A DNA stretch of 64,000 nucleotides from an uncultured Piscirickettsiaceae bacterium (GTDB lineage Bacteria; Pseudomonadota; Gammaproteobacteria; Methylococcales; Cycloclasticaceae), in assembly GCA_913061075.1 (NCBI GenBank), contig CAJXSK010000001.1:62001-126000 (forward strand), given 5' to 3'. This document shows positions 24,003 through 31,200 of the stretch, piece after piece. Position 1 is the first letter of the stretch; every line of letters starts with the position of its first letter. A model generated the notes under the pieces. The model had not been told where the DNA came from and searched no databases. It saw nothing but the letters and a program-made list of their open reading frames with translations. The translations under genes and the position numbers were made by a program.

Positions 24003-24021
24003 GACTTAATTGCATTAAGTC
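24003..24021. repeat. REP-like hairpin at tnpA 3' end
   Basis: GACTTAAT TGC ATTAAGTC next to GGTCGGTGACAAGT. Confidence 0.6.
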
Positions 24022-24710
24022 TACCTCTCAATTTTAGGTCTTCCTCTATTCGCATACCCAATGCGCCTGTTTAACTGCTGCTCAATTAGAGCTTTAAATA
24101 AATTATCACCGGTTGGCATAGAAAACTGTACCGCATTACGAATAGTTCGGTTTTTGTTGGTATCTACATCATTCTTAAACAGCAAAGCATAGCTTTGTTG
24201 CCTATCAAACCTGTTCAAACCCAGTCGGCAGTAAGTTTCGTGTGGGCTAATTAACTTATTAGCCTCACCTTCTGCATTACACAGATAGCTTGACCATTTA
24301 TAAAGCGAAGGGTGAGAGACCATATTAGCTTTAACAGGGTTCATTTCAATATACCGACTACAGGCTAACAGATAATGTTCAGCATCAATAAGGCTTGCCT
24401 TATGTCTTCCCTCCCAAAGAGTTCCAGTGCGTTTATATTCTTTGTTTACGTATTGAACATAACGCCTACCAATAGACTGCATGACTAAACTAATTGAATC
24501 TATTTCCGCAGGAGACATGAGCAGGTGAACATGATTAGTCATCAACACGTAAGCATGAATATTAACGTGGTATTTTTGTGCCGCATCAAAAAGGCACTCA
24601 AGGTAAAAAAGGTAATCTTGCTCAGCAAAAAAAGTGGCGTGGCGATTATTGCCACGTTGGATAATGTGGCAAGGAACATCAGGTACATACATCCGTGTTT
24701 TTCTTGGCAT
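24021..24710 (-). mobile_element. REP-associated tyrosine (Y1) transposase CDS
   Basis: MPRKTRMYVPDVPCHIIQRGNNRHATFF, AYVLMTNHVHLLMSP (HUH), GTLWEGRHKASLIDAEHYLLACSRYIEMNPVKANMV. Confidence 0.95.
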
Positions 24711-24979: not shown

Positions 24980-25258
24980 TTATTTGATACCAATTGCATT
25001 AGTAAATGCCACCCATTTATTAGCAATGTTTTCACCCGCTTGACCTGAGATAAACGACCAACCATGAGCTCTCAATTCAGATTGTGCTAACTCTTGGATA
25101 GCCGACACATTTTCTGTTTGATGAAGCAGTGCATACATTTCGGCTGCCACTGCCAAACGACCTGTTAGTAATGGTCGTTCGTTAGCTTGATTAGTGGTTG
25201 CCAGACCTTCCTTTAAAGCCAAAGTATAATCTGTTAATTTCTCGAATATCTCTTTCAT
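24980..25258 (-). CDS. integron cassette hypothetical protein
   Basis: 92-aa ORF; stop abuts an attC. Confidence 0.75.
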   Translation of the reverse strand: MKEIFEKLTDYTLALKEGLATTNQANERPLLTGRLAVAAEMYALLHQTENVSAIQELAQSELRAHGWSFISGQAGENIANKWVAFTNAIGIK

Positions 25259-25283
25259 GACTATTTACACATAACAGTTACAT

Positions 25284-25306
25284 TAACGAGACCCCCTGTC
25301 TCGTTA
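25284..25306. repeat. mini-palindrome at cassette junction (attC-like or terminator)
   Basis: TAACGAGAC-CCCCT-GTCTCGTTA, perfect 9-bp arms, located exactly between two cassette genes. Confidence 0.6.
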
Positions 25307-25321
25307 TACATTTTTATGCGC

Positions 25322-25597
25322 TTACACAAATATCTCATAATGTCTCTCAATATTGGCTGATACTTTCCCCCAATATGAGCTTTTTACCCTTTGCTGATGA
25401 GACTCAAATGCCACCTTATTGACAAACTCTTCGTGCACACTAAAGCGGTTAGGATTATTTGAATCTTGAATAACTTCAAAAACCAAGCATCCTGGCTCAT
25501 CATGTGTGAGATTCTTATGATTGATTAATTCTTCCTTTACAGAAGAAAGGTCTTCTGCCGGAACTATGATAAATCCTTTTAATATTATTTTCGACAT
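25322..25597 (-). CDS. antibiotic biosynthesis monooxygenase (ABM)-like cassette protein
   Basis: ILKGFIIVPAEDLSSVKEELINHKNLTHDEPGCLVFEVIQDSNNPNRFSVHEEFVNKVAFESHQQ; start MSKIILKG at 25597 because the longer ORF start lies inside the attC. Confidence 0.8.
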   Translation of the reverse strand: MSKIILKGFIIVPAEDLSSVKEELINHKNLTHDEPGCLVFEVIQDSNNPNRFSVHEEFVNKVAFESHQQRVKSSYWGKVSANIERHYEIFV

Positions 25598-25612
25598 GTG
25601 ATCTCTAAAGGC

Positions 25613-25672
25613 ACCTAACGCCTCAAACACCGGCGCAGCTTTGCTGCGTCCGAGTGCTTTGACTTGTTATAT
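25613..25672 (-). other. integron attC recombination site
   Basis: minus strand ATATAACAAGTCAAAGCACTCGGACGCAGCAAAGCTGCGCCGGTGTTTGAGGCGTTAGGT; R'' ATAAC, R' GTTAGGT (GTTRRRY), 60 bp; begins 12 bp after the stop of the upstream gene. Confidence 0.9.
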
Positions 25673-25684
25673 TTGCATTCACCA

Positions 25685-26302
25685 TCAGTTCATTAATTCC
25701 CACAGGATGCGATAGCAATACTTCACTACATCATGCTCGTCTTTATCTGGATTGAGCTTGCCATGCACGAGCATGTTTCGTACCTGATATATAATTTCAA
25801 ACAATCCAGCGAAGCAATGTTGTCGATTGCTTGAAATGAAAAGTTGATCAAGCTTGATGACATCAGCTTCGTCATTGGCATGAACGGAGCCATCCTGATT
25901 GATTCGTGGTGATTTTATTAGGTCAATCGGATTATCTTTATCCTGATAATCTACGATTGCGCTACGTAGAGAACATGATGAAACTCTCTCAGGCTCAAGG
26001 TTTGCACGGTCTAGCGCATAATGAAGCAATTCAAGGTCAGTTCGAAAGGCAATGCCCTCCTTTCCGACCTTATCAATCAACTCTTCAAACTTTTTATAGA
26101 AATGATTTCTGCCACTCGTATCGTCTTTGAGCTTATTAATAAAGTCGCGATCTGAAGCCCCATTTGTTCCCGGATGGAGATCATTCAAATCTGAATAATG
26201 TGACATGTACCATGAGTTACAAGCCAGCCATAGCGATATGAATGGTGAGAAATAATCTATCGCGGATTTCTCCATCCACTCCTTTTTATAGTCAGCAGGC
26301 AT
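25685..26302 (-). CDS. HEPN-like protein linked to RM genes
   Basis: C-terminal YQVRNMLVHGKL (Rx4H motif) in a helical protein; 2 bp after the S subunit stop. Confidence 0.65.
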   Translation of the reverse strand: MPADYKKEWMEKSAIDYFSPFISLWLACNSWYMSHYSDLNDLHPGTNGASDRDFINKLKDDTSGRNHFYKKFEELIDKVGKEGIAFRTDLELLHYALDRANLEPERVSSCSLRSAIVDYQDKDNPIDLIKSPRINQDGSVHANDEADVIKLDQLFISSNRQHCFAGLFEIIYQVRNMLVHGKLNPDKDEHDVVKYCYRILWELMN

Positions 26303-26304
26303 CC

Positions 26305-27696
26305 TTAGACCTCCGCCTGATCTTTTAGCCAGGCATTCGCTGATTTTTCGTCCTTATCAATAGCAATTTCAACAGCACGCTTGGCGCAATCCAGCAAATG
26401 TTTGTATTGCTTTCGAAAGCTGAATGATTCGGTGACTTTTTCCTGGATTTTAGTTTGTTTGGACTCAGGGATAAGGGGTATAGGTAAGTTTAAAATGTCG
26501 TTGTCAACTATGACTGGATATGATGTCCCTGTGTTTGGCTTTAGTGACCATGCTAAAAGTGGCTTCGAATGAAGGAAAGCAAGGAGTGTTTCTTTGTTAA
26601 TTCGGTCATTTTCGTGAAGCACAGTGAATGCACCGCTTCCTACATATCCACTTTCCTCAACAATAGTTATTGCACCTCTGTATGTCCTGACTTTCGAAAC
26701 AATTACGTCGCCCTTCTTCAATGCTCTTTTGGCATTGGCTGGCAATTCTTCACCTAAAACCTCATTTGGAATGATTTCTCCATTTGAAACATTAACGCTG
26801 CCAATTTCCACGTACTGATAAACTTTCTTATCATCAATTTTAAAAGTGCTCTTGTTCTGCTTAAACTCTTCGCCAATAGTTGAATAGCCACCAGAATACT
26901 CTTTTATTGCTTGTTCAATCTCCTCATACTTTGGCTGGAAGTATTCAGCGTCAACGCGTTCGGACTGTTCAGTATCTGAATAGCTTTTGACAAAGAAGAG
27001 TTGATGCTTTGGTTGCCAATGGTCTAAGCCGATCTCAGAAAGCAAAATATCCTGCGACTCGACGAATGATGCAGCTGATTTTCTCAGAATGTCTTTTGCT
27101 GTTTTTACTAGATATTCTACCTTCGATTGAAAATCTTCGCTAAAGATAGGAACCGGAACCGTTTTTATATCAAAAAGGTTTATACCGGGTTGTGCCGCAC
27201 CTCTCTGACCCCTGCGAACTAGACCGTGACCAACATCGCATGATAAATACGTCAACAGGTACCAGACATTTATTTTGGCATTTCGAATCAATGTGCTTTT
27301 GCAGCTAAATATTGAAGGAATATCTTCACTGCTGACAATCGCTGCTTTACCGAAATTCATACCAACAACTGTAAGAAGAATGTCATTTTCTTTCAGATGA
27401 AACTGTGGCAATTCATCAAACAGTCCTCCTTCAATAAACACAGGATCAGCGTCAACGACAAAAGGTGTTTGTATGTCTTTTCCCCTGATATAACGCTTTC
27501 CGCTATTTTCATCATATCGCTCAGCTGTTACCGTAGAGCCGAAAGGCCCAGCAATAAGACCACAAAGGTTTCCAAGGAATTCATGATTATGATTGAGAAC
27601 TGCATCTTCTTTTCTCAAGTTTTCAGGGCTGTAGTATTCTGAGTCAATTCTGAATTCAGCGTTCAATTCACTTTTTCTAACAGCTGAAATCAGCAT
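26305..27696 (-). CDS. hsdS: restriction-modification specificity subunit (HsdS-like)
   Basis: two-TRD layout; GPFGSTVTAERYDENSGKRYIRGKDIQ; QPGINLFDIKTVPVPIF; likely start MLISAVRKSEL at 27696. Confidence 0.88.
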   Translation of the reverse strand: MLISAVRKSELNAEFRIDSEYYSPENLRKEDAVLNHNHEFLGNLCGLIAGPFGSTVTAERYDENSGKRYIRGKDIQTPFVVDADPVFIEGGLFDELPQFHLKENDILLTVVGMNFGKAAIVSSEDIPSIFSCKSTLIRNAKINVWYLLTYLSCDVGHGLVRRGQRGAAQPGINLFDIKTVPVPIFSEDFQSKVEYLVKTAKDILRKSAASFVESQDILLSEIGLDHWQPKHQLFFVKSYSDTEQSERVDAEYFQPKYEEIEQAIKEYSGGYSTIGEEFKQNKSTFKIDDKKVYQYVEIGSVNVSNGEIIPNEVLGEELPANAKRALKKGDVIVSKVRTYRGAITIVEESGYVGSGAFTVLHENDRINKETLLAFLHSKPLLAWSLKPNTGTSYPVIVDNDILNLPIPLIPESKQTKIQEKVTESFSFRKQYKHLLDCAKRAVEIAIDKDEKSANAWLKDQAEV

Positions 27697-27698
27697 TC

Positions 27699-29762
27699 TT
27701 AACCCTCCAACCAAAACGACAAATTCTCGACTTTAGCCCAGTCAATAAATGCTTCCGTAATACCATCAGGTAATTCTCCGCCGTGGTTGTGCAGGTCATG
27801 GTCAACAATCAAATGTCCATTTTTATCCAACTTATATTGGCCGTTACCGTTTTTGACATAGATATAATCGCCGGAGTTGTCTTTACCGCCTTTTTGGCTG
27901 ACAGCGAAAAAGATAGGGTAATCCTCCACTTTCGGGCAAAGCTCGTCATGCCACTTTTGTACAAACAACACACTGGTTTTGGTGCCAGTGTGGGGCTTGA
28001 AAGTATTGCCATGCAGTCCTACCACGGCAAGGATACGGCCATGCTGGGCGATAAATTCACGTATATTCTTGTCTGAAGCGTTGTTAAAGCGACCTTGTGG
28101 TAGAACAATCGCCATGCGGCCACCCGGCTTGAGAAAGTCCAGGTTTCTTTCAATAAATAGAATATCACGCCCGACTTTGCTTTGTGCCTTGCCGTTACCC
28201 TTAAAGCCTAATTCATACTGGTGCAGGATGCGGCTTTCTTTGATGTCTCCTGCAAAGGGAGGATTTGCCATCAAAATATCGAAGTCGAAATTTTTGTTTT
28301 CGTCCTTGTCGCTTCTAAGTTTTTTCAGACGGTCAAAACCTTTGCCGTAGGTATTAATCCACTTTGGATCTTTTTCGGTCTTGTCACACCAACGCTCAAA
28401 ATCCAGCGTATTGAGATGCAGAACATTGGTTTCACCATCACCCGCGATCAGGTTGAGGGTACGAGCAACTCGCACAGTTTTTTCGTCAAAGTCGATTCCA
28501 AACACCTTGAGTACATGCTGTTTTTCTTCGTCAGGAATTTCAGCGTTGGTGAACAAATGTCCGGTGAGTTTGAAAATCGTATGCACCGGAAACCCACAGC
28601 TACCGGATGCTGTGTCAATCATGTATTCCCCGCGCGTGGGATTGAGCATCTGCACGCACATATCAATGACGTGGCGCGGTGTGAAATATTGGCCTTTTTC
28701 CCCTTTGGAGGATTTATTGACCAGATACTCAAAAGCCTCATCGACCACCAGCAAGTTTGAATTGAATAGCTTTACATCCTGCAAGCTGGAAACACATACA
28801 GATAAATGGCTGTCGGAAAGTTCAAAAGACGCCCCTTCGGGAAATACGCCATGCCACTGGTTTTTTGCCTCGTTAAACAACTCCTGAATTTTCTTTTTTA
28901 ATTCAGAATCGGTTTGGCCGGTATTTCTGAACTCCATAACACGAAATTTCTTGTCGTTAAGTGTTTCAAGGCATCCTTTTAGTTTTTCGTAATCGCCCCT
29001 TTCTTCCTCATCCAAATTCTGGTCAATATGATATTCAATAATATCCTTATCTTTTTTGCTGCCGAATTCATCATAGAGTTTAGTGAAAATGAGCTTGAAT
29101 ACTTCTTCGAATACATCCACGCCAGCATTGGCGAGAACCTCATCTTCCATTTCCAAAATGATGTCTTTCAATGACTTTCGTTCATTGGCGATTTTGTCTT
29201 TGATAATTAGGTCGCGCAGGGTGAAGCGCTCGCTCAGTATGTCTTTGAGCGTTAGATTCTCTTTTGGAATGTCCGTGATGTCTTCAAAATAATTTGGATC
29301 TTTGCGGTGGTAGTGAGATATTTTCTCGCCATTTGTCCATACGCCAATGGGCGCACCCGTTGCGTTGCAATAGGAGCGAAGTTGATTTTTTCCATCTTTA
29401 AGTTTGGGCTTTTTTAGTTCAACGACGACATAAGGGGTATCAGTACGGTCCTTGTCAAAAATGACAATATCCGCGCTTTTCTTCTCGCGCCCAAAGGTAA
29501 CTGCATATTCAAAGGCAAGGCGCTTTTTCGGGTAACCGTACTGCTCTATTAACCTTGTTGCGTATAGCTGCCTGACCACCTCTTCAGGCTTAAGTTGAAT
29601 ATCTTTATCTCTAACGACGCATTTTATGAAAGGAGTATCTTTACCTCTGGTTTCCTTGATAATAACTTTTTGCCGTAAATCTTCAATTTCCTCATCCGAG
29701 AACAGCGATAAATTGTAGTTGCTATCTTTTAGGATGGATTGAAAAATGTCTGTTTTTATCAT
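27699..29762 (-). CDS. hsdM: N6-adenine DNA methylase with N-terminal HsdR-N/PD-(D/E)XK-like domain (Type I HsdM or BcgI-like RM subunit)
   Basis: SAM motif DTASGSCGF, catalytic ANPPF; N-terminus SADIVIFDKDRTDTPYVVVELKKPK...GKNQLRSYC (D-X16-ELK plus QxxxY). Confidence 0.9.
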   Translation of the reverse strand: MIKTDIFQSILKDSNYNLSLFSDEEIEDLRQKVIIKETRGKDTPFIKCVVRDKDIQLKPEEVVRQLYATRLIEQYGYPKKRLAFEYAVTFGREKKSADIVIFDKDRTDTPYVVVELKKPKLKDGKNQLRSYCNATGAPIGVWTNGEKISHYHRKDPNYFEDITDIPKENLTLKDILSERFTLRDLIIKDKIANERKSLKDIILEMEDEVLANAGVDVFEEVFKLIFTKLYDEFGSKKDKDIIEYHIDQNLDEEERGDYEKLKGCLETLNDKKFRVMEFRNTGQTDSELKKKIQELFNEAKNQWHGVFPEGASFELSDSHLSVCVSSLQDVKLFNSNLLVVDEAFEYLVNKSSKGEKGQYFTPRHVIDMCVQMLNPTRGEYMIDTASGSCGFPVHTIFKLTGHLFTNAEIPDEEKQHVLKVFGIDFDEKTVRVARTLNLIAGDGETNVLHLNTLDFERWCDKTEKDPKWINTYGKGFDRLKKLRSDKDENKNFDFDILMANPPFAGDIKESRILHQYELGFKGNGKAQSKVGRDILFIERNLDFLKPGGRMAIVLPQGRFNNASDKNIREFIAQHGRILAVVGLHGNTFKPHTGTKTSVLFVQKWHDELCPKVEDYPIFFAVSQKGGKDNSGDYIYVKNGNGQYKLDKNGHLIVDHDLHNHGGELPDGITEAFIDWAKVENLSFWLEG

Positions 29763-29823
29763 TACTTCTTATATCTCCGTTTCATAATTTTTTACGACTT
29801 GCACGGTGGTTGGTTTGCAAATA

Positions 29824-29984
29824 TAACGTTCCGTGTTGTCGGGAAAGCTTCCCGTGTAATTGGTGAGTCCGAAGGCTTATCATATTATACGGGAAGCTTT
29901 CCTGACGAACCGTCTTGTTAGTAGGACGCGTAGCGGATTACTAACACGATGGTTTGGCAGGGCATCCGACAACACGGAACGTTA
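29824..29984. repeat. nested inverted-repeat / three-way-junction element
   Basis: 19-bp perfect outer arms TAACGTTCCGTGTTGTCGG (29824-29842)/(29966-29984); inner arms 14 bp (29842-29855/29889-29902) and 8 bp (29916-29923/29939-29946). Confidence 0.9.
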
Positions 29985-30020
29985 AAAGGGCACTGAGCCA
30001 GAGCGAAGTGTCCTTTTAAC
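29981..30020. repeat. 40-bp imperfect palindrome, candidate attI/attC core
   Basis: GTTAAAAGGgCACT...AGTGtCCTTTTAAC; one mismatched position in a 14-bp stem. Confidence 0.7.
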
Positions 30021-30213: not shown

Positions 30214-31200
30214 ATGTCTAAATCACCTTTTTTATCTTCTGTGGAAGAGTATATGACGGTACGTCGTTATAGTAAACGTACCATTAAAAGTTACTTATAC
30301 TGGATTCGAAGTTATATTCTTTATCATAAGAAAGCTCACCCAAAGGAGTTACATGCAAAGCACGTTGAAGATTTTTTAACGTATCTTTCAGTCAAGCGTA
30401 AGGTTTCTAGCAGCACGCAAAAAATAGCGTTGAATGCCTTGGCATTTTTGTACAACAAGTTTTTTGAACAGCCCTTGGGTAACTTATCTGAGTTTAATCG
30501 AGTAAAAAGACAACCAAGGCTCCCAACTGTGTTAACTGAAGGTGAGGTTATGAACCTATTGCATAATCTTGATCCAGTTTATAAATTACCGGTAGGTCTG
30601 TTATATGGTTCTGGTTTGCGGTTAATGGAATGTGTGCGTTTGAGAGTTAATGATGTTGATTTAGATTTAAAGCAAGTTCGTGTTTGGAATGGCAAAGGAG
30701 CTAAGCATCGGCTGTCGACTTTAGCGGTTGAACTGGCTCATGGGATTAAGCGTCAAATTCAAAAAGTTGAGGGCTACTTAGAAGAAGACTTGCAAAAAGA
30801 GTAATACAGTGGGGTGTGGTTGCCTGATGCGCTAGATCGAAAATATAAAAATGCTAATAAATCACTTGGCTGGCAATATTTATTTCCATCTGTAAAGTTA
30901 AGTGTCGATCCGAGCAGTGGCTTGGTTCGTCGTCATCACATAGATGAAACCGGTATTAATAAGGCTCTTAAACGAGCTGCTTTAAAGACTAGTATTAGGA
31001 AACAAGTCAGCTCTCATACGTTGAGGCATTCTTTTGCTACACACCTTTTACAAAATGGCGCTGATATTAGAACGGTGCAACAGCAGCTAGGGCATAGTGA
31101 TGTAAAGACGACTGAAATTTATACACATGTGCTTAAGCAAGGTGCTGATGGTGTTAAGAGTCCTTTAAGTCGTTTGATAGGTAAGGATGATATTGATTAG
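30214..31200 (+). pseudogene. intI: integron integrase (IntI-type tyrosine recombinase), split by in-frame TAA at 30802-30804
   Basis: both ORFs in the same frame; R in [39 protein letters not shown]; IntI-specific insert [27 protein letters not shown] and [17 protein letters not shown]. Confidence 0.93.

Follow-up and report, generated by a model that had tools for sequence, protein, structure and literature searches.

A nuclease-methylase, a specificity subunit and a HEPN-like protein in one integron cassette: a probable two-layer phage defence

The window analysed here is a stretch of 64,000 nucleotides from an uncultured Piscirickettsiaceae bacterium (assembly GCA_913061075.1, contig CAJXSK010000001.1, positions 62,001 to 126,000), and one of its integron cassettes raises a double question: how might an hsdM-like and an hsdS-like gene restrict foreign DNA with no hsdR beside them, and what would the small gene that follows them contribute? 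The three open reading frames (ORFs) are:

27699..29762, minus strand: M, the hsdM-like gene of a combined restriction-modification (RM) chain, 687 amino acids (aa); nuclease and methylase by Pfam
26305..27714, minus strand: S, 469 aa from a TTG start; two target-recognition halves, Methylase_S
25685..26302, minus strand: ORF3, 205 aa; HEPN-like putative RNase effector with R175-N-M-L-V-H180

They lie where the original prediction, made from the letters of the sequence, had placed them, and they are nearly contiguous, as it had said: an in-frame ATG of S, downstream of the TTG, gives a gap of 2 bp after M, and the gap from S to ORF3 is also 2 bp. The cassette probably encodes a two-layer phage defence: an RM enzyme that looks complete, and closely coupled to it a small protein bearing the signature of RNA-cutting, suicide-type enzymes. 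The three-gene set is found again in unrelated bacteria.

The nuclease-methylase chain and its specificity subunit

M opens with an HSDR_N_2 domain (residues 59-166; Pfam, E 6.1e-29) and continues with an N6_Mtase domain (residues 340-613; E 5.1e-32) of a gamma-class N6-adenine methylase, with NPPF at 500-503. The predicted nuclease block is present as D98-X16-E115-L-K117, together with QLRSY, and in an alignment of 11 homologues reaching down to 43% identity E85, D98, E115, K117, Q127 and Y131 are invariant. The nuclease site is also intact across a wider set of 17, the sole exception being the authentic MAD2 protein of Hymenobacter. The best solved relative of M by sequence profile is RM.BsaXI, an established Type IIB enzyme (E 2.5e-46). 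A separate N-terminal stretch of the profile match (E 0.0013) places E115 and K117 on BsaXI E105 and K107; E85 and D98 pair with BsaXI E73 and D90 only with two-residue shifts, and we therefore only infer that part of the match. The AlphaFold2 (AF2) model of M (predicted local distance difference test, pLDDT, 73) has a helix at 59-73, strands at 82-90, 93-102 and 110-116 and a helix at 121-135, which in the model is the strand-strand-strand-helix pattern of a PD-(D/E)XK core carrying the motif. In a Foldseek search with this model BsaXI comes first (~700 columns, E 1.8e-20), and HsdM proteins and Type IIG enzymes rank below. The nuclease part of M is not a relic, since its ratio of non-synonymous to synonymous divergence (dN/dS) between the window and the related locus L006 is 0.041; the methylase part, under the same purifying selection, has 0.030 (dN/dS is given for L006 and L007 only, dS being saturated for most pairs). 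Domain match, invariant residues, BsaXI matches and modelled core together bear out the suggestion that the methylase chain contains its own means of cleavage, in the manner of BcgI-like Type IIB enzymes.

The likeness to BsaXI and BcgI is one of overall plan (a single chain with an N-terminal PD-(D/E)XK nuclease and a gamma N6-methylase, a separate S with two target-recognition domains (TRDs), and no helicase) and, for BsaXI, extends to the conserved catalytic E, D and ExK and to the best profile and fold match. The available text of the BsaXI paper (PMC11997821) describes an (RM)2S complex in which cleavage needs E73, D90, E105 and K107, as judged from alanine mutants; that text mentions no third gene, which is a difference from the present locus. 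Another is size: with 687 aa against 916 aa, M has no room for the C-terminal paddle of BsaXI, and its nuclease domain is one that is recognised as HSDR_N_2. Of what characterises Type IIB enzymes, the chain of N-terminal nuclease and methylase, the catalytic residues, the two-TRD S and the lack of a linked translocase were all found; the hsdR partner that a Type I operon would have was not. A relative of M and S in Picosynechococcus pAQ6 (L013:6986-10525) is a single chain of 1179 aa with nuclease, methylase and specificity parts, the layout of AloI-type enzymes (PMC3874165).

S has a Methylase_S domain by Pfam and matches S subunits in the PDB, S.BsaXI among them weakly. Its windowed identity to the S of L006 is 0.13-0.40 in the first ~210 codons and 0.76-0.97 past codon 241; over L006 and L007 together the first ~210 codons are 13-40% identical and the remainder mostly 73-97%. 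On these alignments TRD1 has been swapped between otherwise similar cassettes and TRD2 retained. TRD exchange is typical of specificity genes in active Type I and Type IIB systems.

The claim that the trio has no hsdR holds for the surrounding 12 kb of ORFs, and none is found beside the trio in Escherichia coli or Klebsiella. An hsdR elsewhere and functionally linked had been named as something that could undo the prediction. A genome search with the hsdR model does find one, on contig C12, but it sits beside an M and an S of its own. In that conventional Type I system (L052, G000 C12:39343-46148) S and hsdR are separated by a gene of 309 aa.

The third protein

ORF3 had been likened to HEPN RNases for its RNMLVH, which is indeed there as R175-x4-H180. 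R175 and H180 are among the 14 invariant columns of seven ORF3-family sequences (21-83% identity), and an invariant R/H pair at a spacing of 4-6 arises in 1.6% of random trials (0.016). The AF2 model is all-helical, with R175 ending a helix at 160-179, H180 in the following loop and a last helix at 189-204; it is a shallow model (5 sequences, pLDDT 69.6), with residues 108-157 below 50 and most core blocks at 70-91. In the HEPN definition the Rx4-6H motif stands at the end of helix 3 or the start of the next loop (PMC3710099), and its position in ORF3 agrees. What weighs against this assignment is that ORF3 matches no family of Pfam, NCBIfam or PADLOC, that scans of seven relatives against Pfam, PADLOC and PHROGs gave no family either, and that a Foldseek search of the model against the PDB and viral models returned insignificant matches only and no HEPN structure. 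Since Foldseek gave nothing significant, the HEPN identity is probable rather than shown: the fit of motif and helix topology stands, the family and fold matches are absent, and ORF3 is best described as a probable HEPN-type RNase. The N-terminal part of ORF3 has a dN/dS of 0.033.

The accompanying comparison with PrrC and RloC also stands in part. Like EcoprrI-PrrC, the locus links an RM enzyme genetically to an RNase effector with Rx4-6H, putative in the case of ORF3. PrrC, however, has an N-terminal ABC ATPase and accompanies Type IC hsdMSR (PMC3710099), while the 205 aa of ORF3 contain no Pfam match and no ABC-ATPase domain, and the trio has no hsdR; PrrC and RloC therefore serve as analogy only. 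At least 16 HEPN clades are linked to RM systems (PMC3710099). These known RM-linked HEPN proteins, an integron-cassette HEPN protein (3jrt) and the effectors of BREX share the concept with ORF3, which differs from all of these in matching no described family and in being tied to a Type IIB-like enzyme.

Close homologues of ORF3 follow M-S (or S, on short contigs) at L004, L005, L006, where ORF3 is truncated, and L007. Distant ones (21-30% identity) stand behind M-S in three E. coli chromosomes (EC2001 and two others), on a plasmid of Klebsiella, in the Pseudomonadota genomes G720 and G453 and on a contig from the human gut that is filed as a phage; a divergent homologue has the same place in Endozoicomonas. 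In every trio ORF3 comes directly after S or overlaps it. A profile search in a survey of the phylum found the ORF3 family in 4 of 399 genomes, all four times beside M-S, so that the expected co-occurrence of M, S and third gene is upheld in diverged genomes. The truncation at L006 (L006:5730-6480) coincides with a RAYT-type transposase gene that AAAAGGGGACGTTACCC and GGGTAACGTCCCCTTTT flank. In 465 Klebsiella plasmid records only the back half of ORF3 remains, its front having been lost together with M and S; in the one remnant inspected (L053:3675-4408) an IS1-like transposase gene adjoins what is left of ORF3, and a DUF262 pair is retained. Such remnants would fit a toxin that is not tolerated once its keeper is lost, but simple deletion would account for them too.

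The third slot can also be filled differently. At L019:6330-10767 a TIR-domain protein (TIR_2, 1.8e-15) is encoded behind M-S (with M frameshifted), where the HEPN-like gene would be; the slot is taken at L032:1883-3941 by a HEPN-MNT fusion (NTase_sub_bind and Polbeta) and at L031 by a DUF3800 protein; at L030 a Bro-N gene lies between M and S, and the slot is empty in L013 (the fused M-S already referred to) and L035. Behind the HEPN-like gene there are Mrr-type restriction nucleases of differing architectures at L005:4802-5770 and L033:4230-5207, and DUF262 pairs in Klebsiella and E. coli. The variable slot resembles, in what is here a small sample, the HEPN, HEPN-MNT and other backup effectors found near BREX (PMC12839542).

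The integron cassette

The trio and its surroundings are laid out as follows:

25619..29826, minus strand: trio cassette, ~4.2 kb; 5' boundary at GTTATATTTGC, where likeness to L006 starts
25612..25678, minus strand: attC closing the trio cassette, ATATAAC...GTTAGGT with a stem; cassette end at ~25619
~29827..30016, minus strand: gene-less cassette, ~190 bp, with an attC-like palindrome, AACGTTCCGTGTTGTCGG...CCGACAACACGGAACGTT, read from the sequence
30214..31200, plus strand: integron integrase gene, a probable pseudogene; in-frame TAA at 30802-30804
24980..25630, minus strand: two small cassettes behind the trio, an ABM-family monooxygenase (25322-25630) and a 92-aa ORF (24980-25258)

The boundaries of the unit recur in different genomic backgrounds, which shows that it moves as a whole, and mobility of the trio as a single integron cassette, which had been proposed, is supported by its size, its exact boundaries and the attC at its 3' end. 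Similarity between the window and L006 begins at the expected crossover point, and the attC of the window folds as DNA with a z of -3.84. An attC with a different stem occupies the same place after ORF3 in L004 (L004 and L006 are contigs of metagenome-assembled genomes, whose binning may be wrong). DNA folding of the L004 attC and of the one at 24.9 kb in the window was no better than that of shuffles, so that these two sites are defined by sequence boundaries only. The transfer of the cassette is old, since the M genes of the window and L006 differ by about one substitution per synonymous site (0.97).

In one respect the original prediction has to be corrected. The gene-less cassette, whose palindromic arms are long and perfect, lies between the integrase and the trio, which is thus the second cassette and not the first. 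The profile TIGR02249 matches both halves of the integrase (profile positions 1-190 and 196-315); with the in-frame stop in intI, a functional integrase is not what this genome carries. A RAYT-type transposase-like ORF (24021-24710) lies near the cassettes behind the trio.

A proposed mechanism, its rivals and what it would mean

The reading that we favour, and consider likely, is of a Type IIB-like RM enzyme with a coupled HEPN-type backup effector. A complex of two RM chains with a single S would bind a two-part DNA site, and the RM chain would methylate adenine in the sites of the host. On unmodified DNA the N-terminal PD-(D/E)XK domain would, by comparison with BsaXI, cut near the site with no need of a helicase or ATP. 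ORF3, the probable HEPN-type RNase, would be made in step with the RM subunits and, if the analogy with PrrC holds, would probably be kept inactive by the RM complex or for want of a trigger; failed or inhibited restriction might then free it to halt translation in the infected cell. Release upon failure of restriction has been proposed for HEPN genes of RM operons, on the example of PrrC (PMC3710099).

Several observations pull the other way, beyond the missing family and fold matches of ORF3. M and S persist in L006 despite the truncation of ORF3, so that M-S does not need it, and the fused Picosynechococcus relative has no HEPN neighbour. The MAD2 protein of MADS (methylation-associated defence) systems has the fold of M with a nuclease site that is not intact, so that cutting by the N-terminal domain is not a given in that branch. 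An engineered fusion of an HsdR nuclease to HsdM modified DNA and did not restrict it (PMC6158711); such fusions have the domain order of M, while the natural fusion in M is intact and under selection.

In a first rival reading an ordinary Type IIB-like RM enzyme is accompanied by an unrelated helical accessory (a regulator, a chaperone or a factor for M-S assembly) that is no HEPN toxin. ORF3 without a HEPN match and always close behind S, as a subunit might be, would fit, as would the loss of M-S from hundreds of Klebsiella plasmids that left just half of ORF3. Against it stand the R-x4-H, which belongs to only 14 invariant columns and falls exactly at a helix end, and the known toxin and effector types (TIR, HEPN-MNT, DUF3800) that replace ORF3 in its slot; we regard this reading as rather unlikely, if the foremost of the rivals. 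A somewhat smaller chance attaches to a MADS-related system that only modifies or senses DNA, in which M-S marks self, the N-terminal domain binds without cutting and the third gene or its neighbours (Mrr, GmrSD-like) execute. The nearest named models for M and S are indeed MAD2 (9.7e-85) and MAD5 (1e-35), and the Mrr-type nucleases behind the trio at L005 and L033 and the DUF262 pairs of E. coli and Klebsiella could be such neighbours. The scores are nevertheless far under the equivalog cut-offs (285 of 720 bits for MAD2, 123 of 400 bits for MAD5) and no MADS kinase is found among the genes neighbouring the trio, which led us to reject membership in MADS; moreover, the residues lost in the Hymenobacter protein, the one authentic MAD2 examined, are intact in M, and the nuclease part is strongly conserved.

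The genes might also be present and yet unexpressed or non-functional in this host, as parts of a decaying cassette. The broken integrase is in keeping with that, as is a scan for promoters, which, like one for terminators, gave results at chance level. Decay is hard to square with three intact ORFs under purifying selection between cassettes that are about one substitution per synonymous site apart, or with the position of the trio close to the integrase, the end at which cassettes are usually best expressed, and we judge it improbable. Most improbable of all is a split Type I system in which the trio borrows an hsdR from elsewhere in the genome: there is one such gene to borrow, but it has its own M and S on C12, the trio has no hsdR beside it in the window, in E. 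coli or in Klebsiella, and M already has a nuclease domain of its own; this candidate was rejected.

To return to the Type IIB-like enzyme with its HEPN-type effector, a wider and less probable conjecture would make of it one member of a whole family, in which compact RM cores of the Type IIB-like sort each carry an exchangeable abortive effector as third gene (HEPN, HEPN-MNT, TIR or DUF3800). The RM complex would serve as sensor or guard, the effector would be freed by inhibition of restriction rather than by DNA damage, and spread would be partly as single integron cassettes.

Linkage of HEPN genes to RM systems, Type IIB enzymes and integron defence cassettes (the last from two Science papers, as cited in the available text of PMC13092281) are each already known; in the open-access literature no paper was found in which a HEPN gene is coupled with a Type IIB enzyme. 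Protein engineers attempted just such an intermediate, an HsdR-type nuclease fused to HsdM, without getting it to function (PMC6158711); the natural fusion in this family makes the transition from Type I to Type IIB directly testable, and since the ~4-kb unit has a version in E. coli (EC2001 and two other genomes) it can readily be tested in that host. The locus also shows that a multi-gene defence unit can be carried in an integron cassette and, if the proposed reading is true, its pairing of a Type IIB-like enzyme with a HEPN-like effector would take the PrrC idea over to helicase-free RM.

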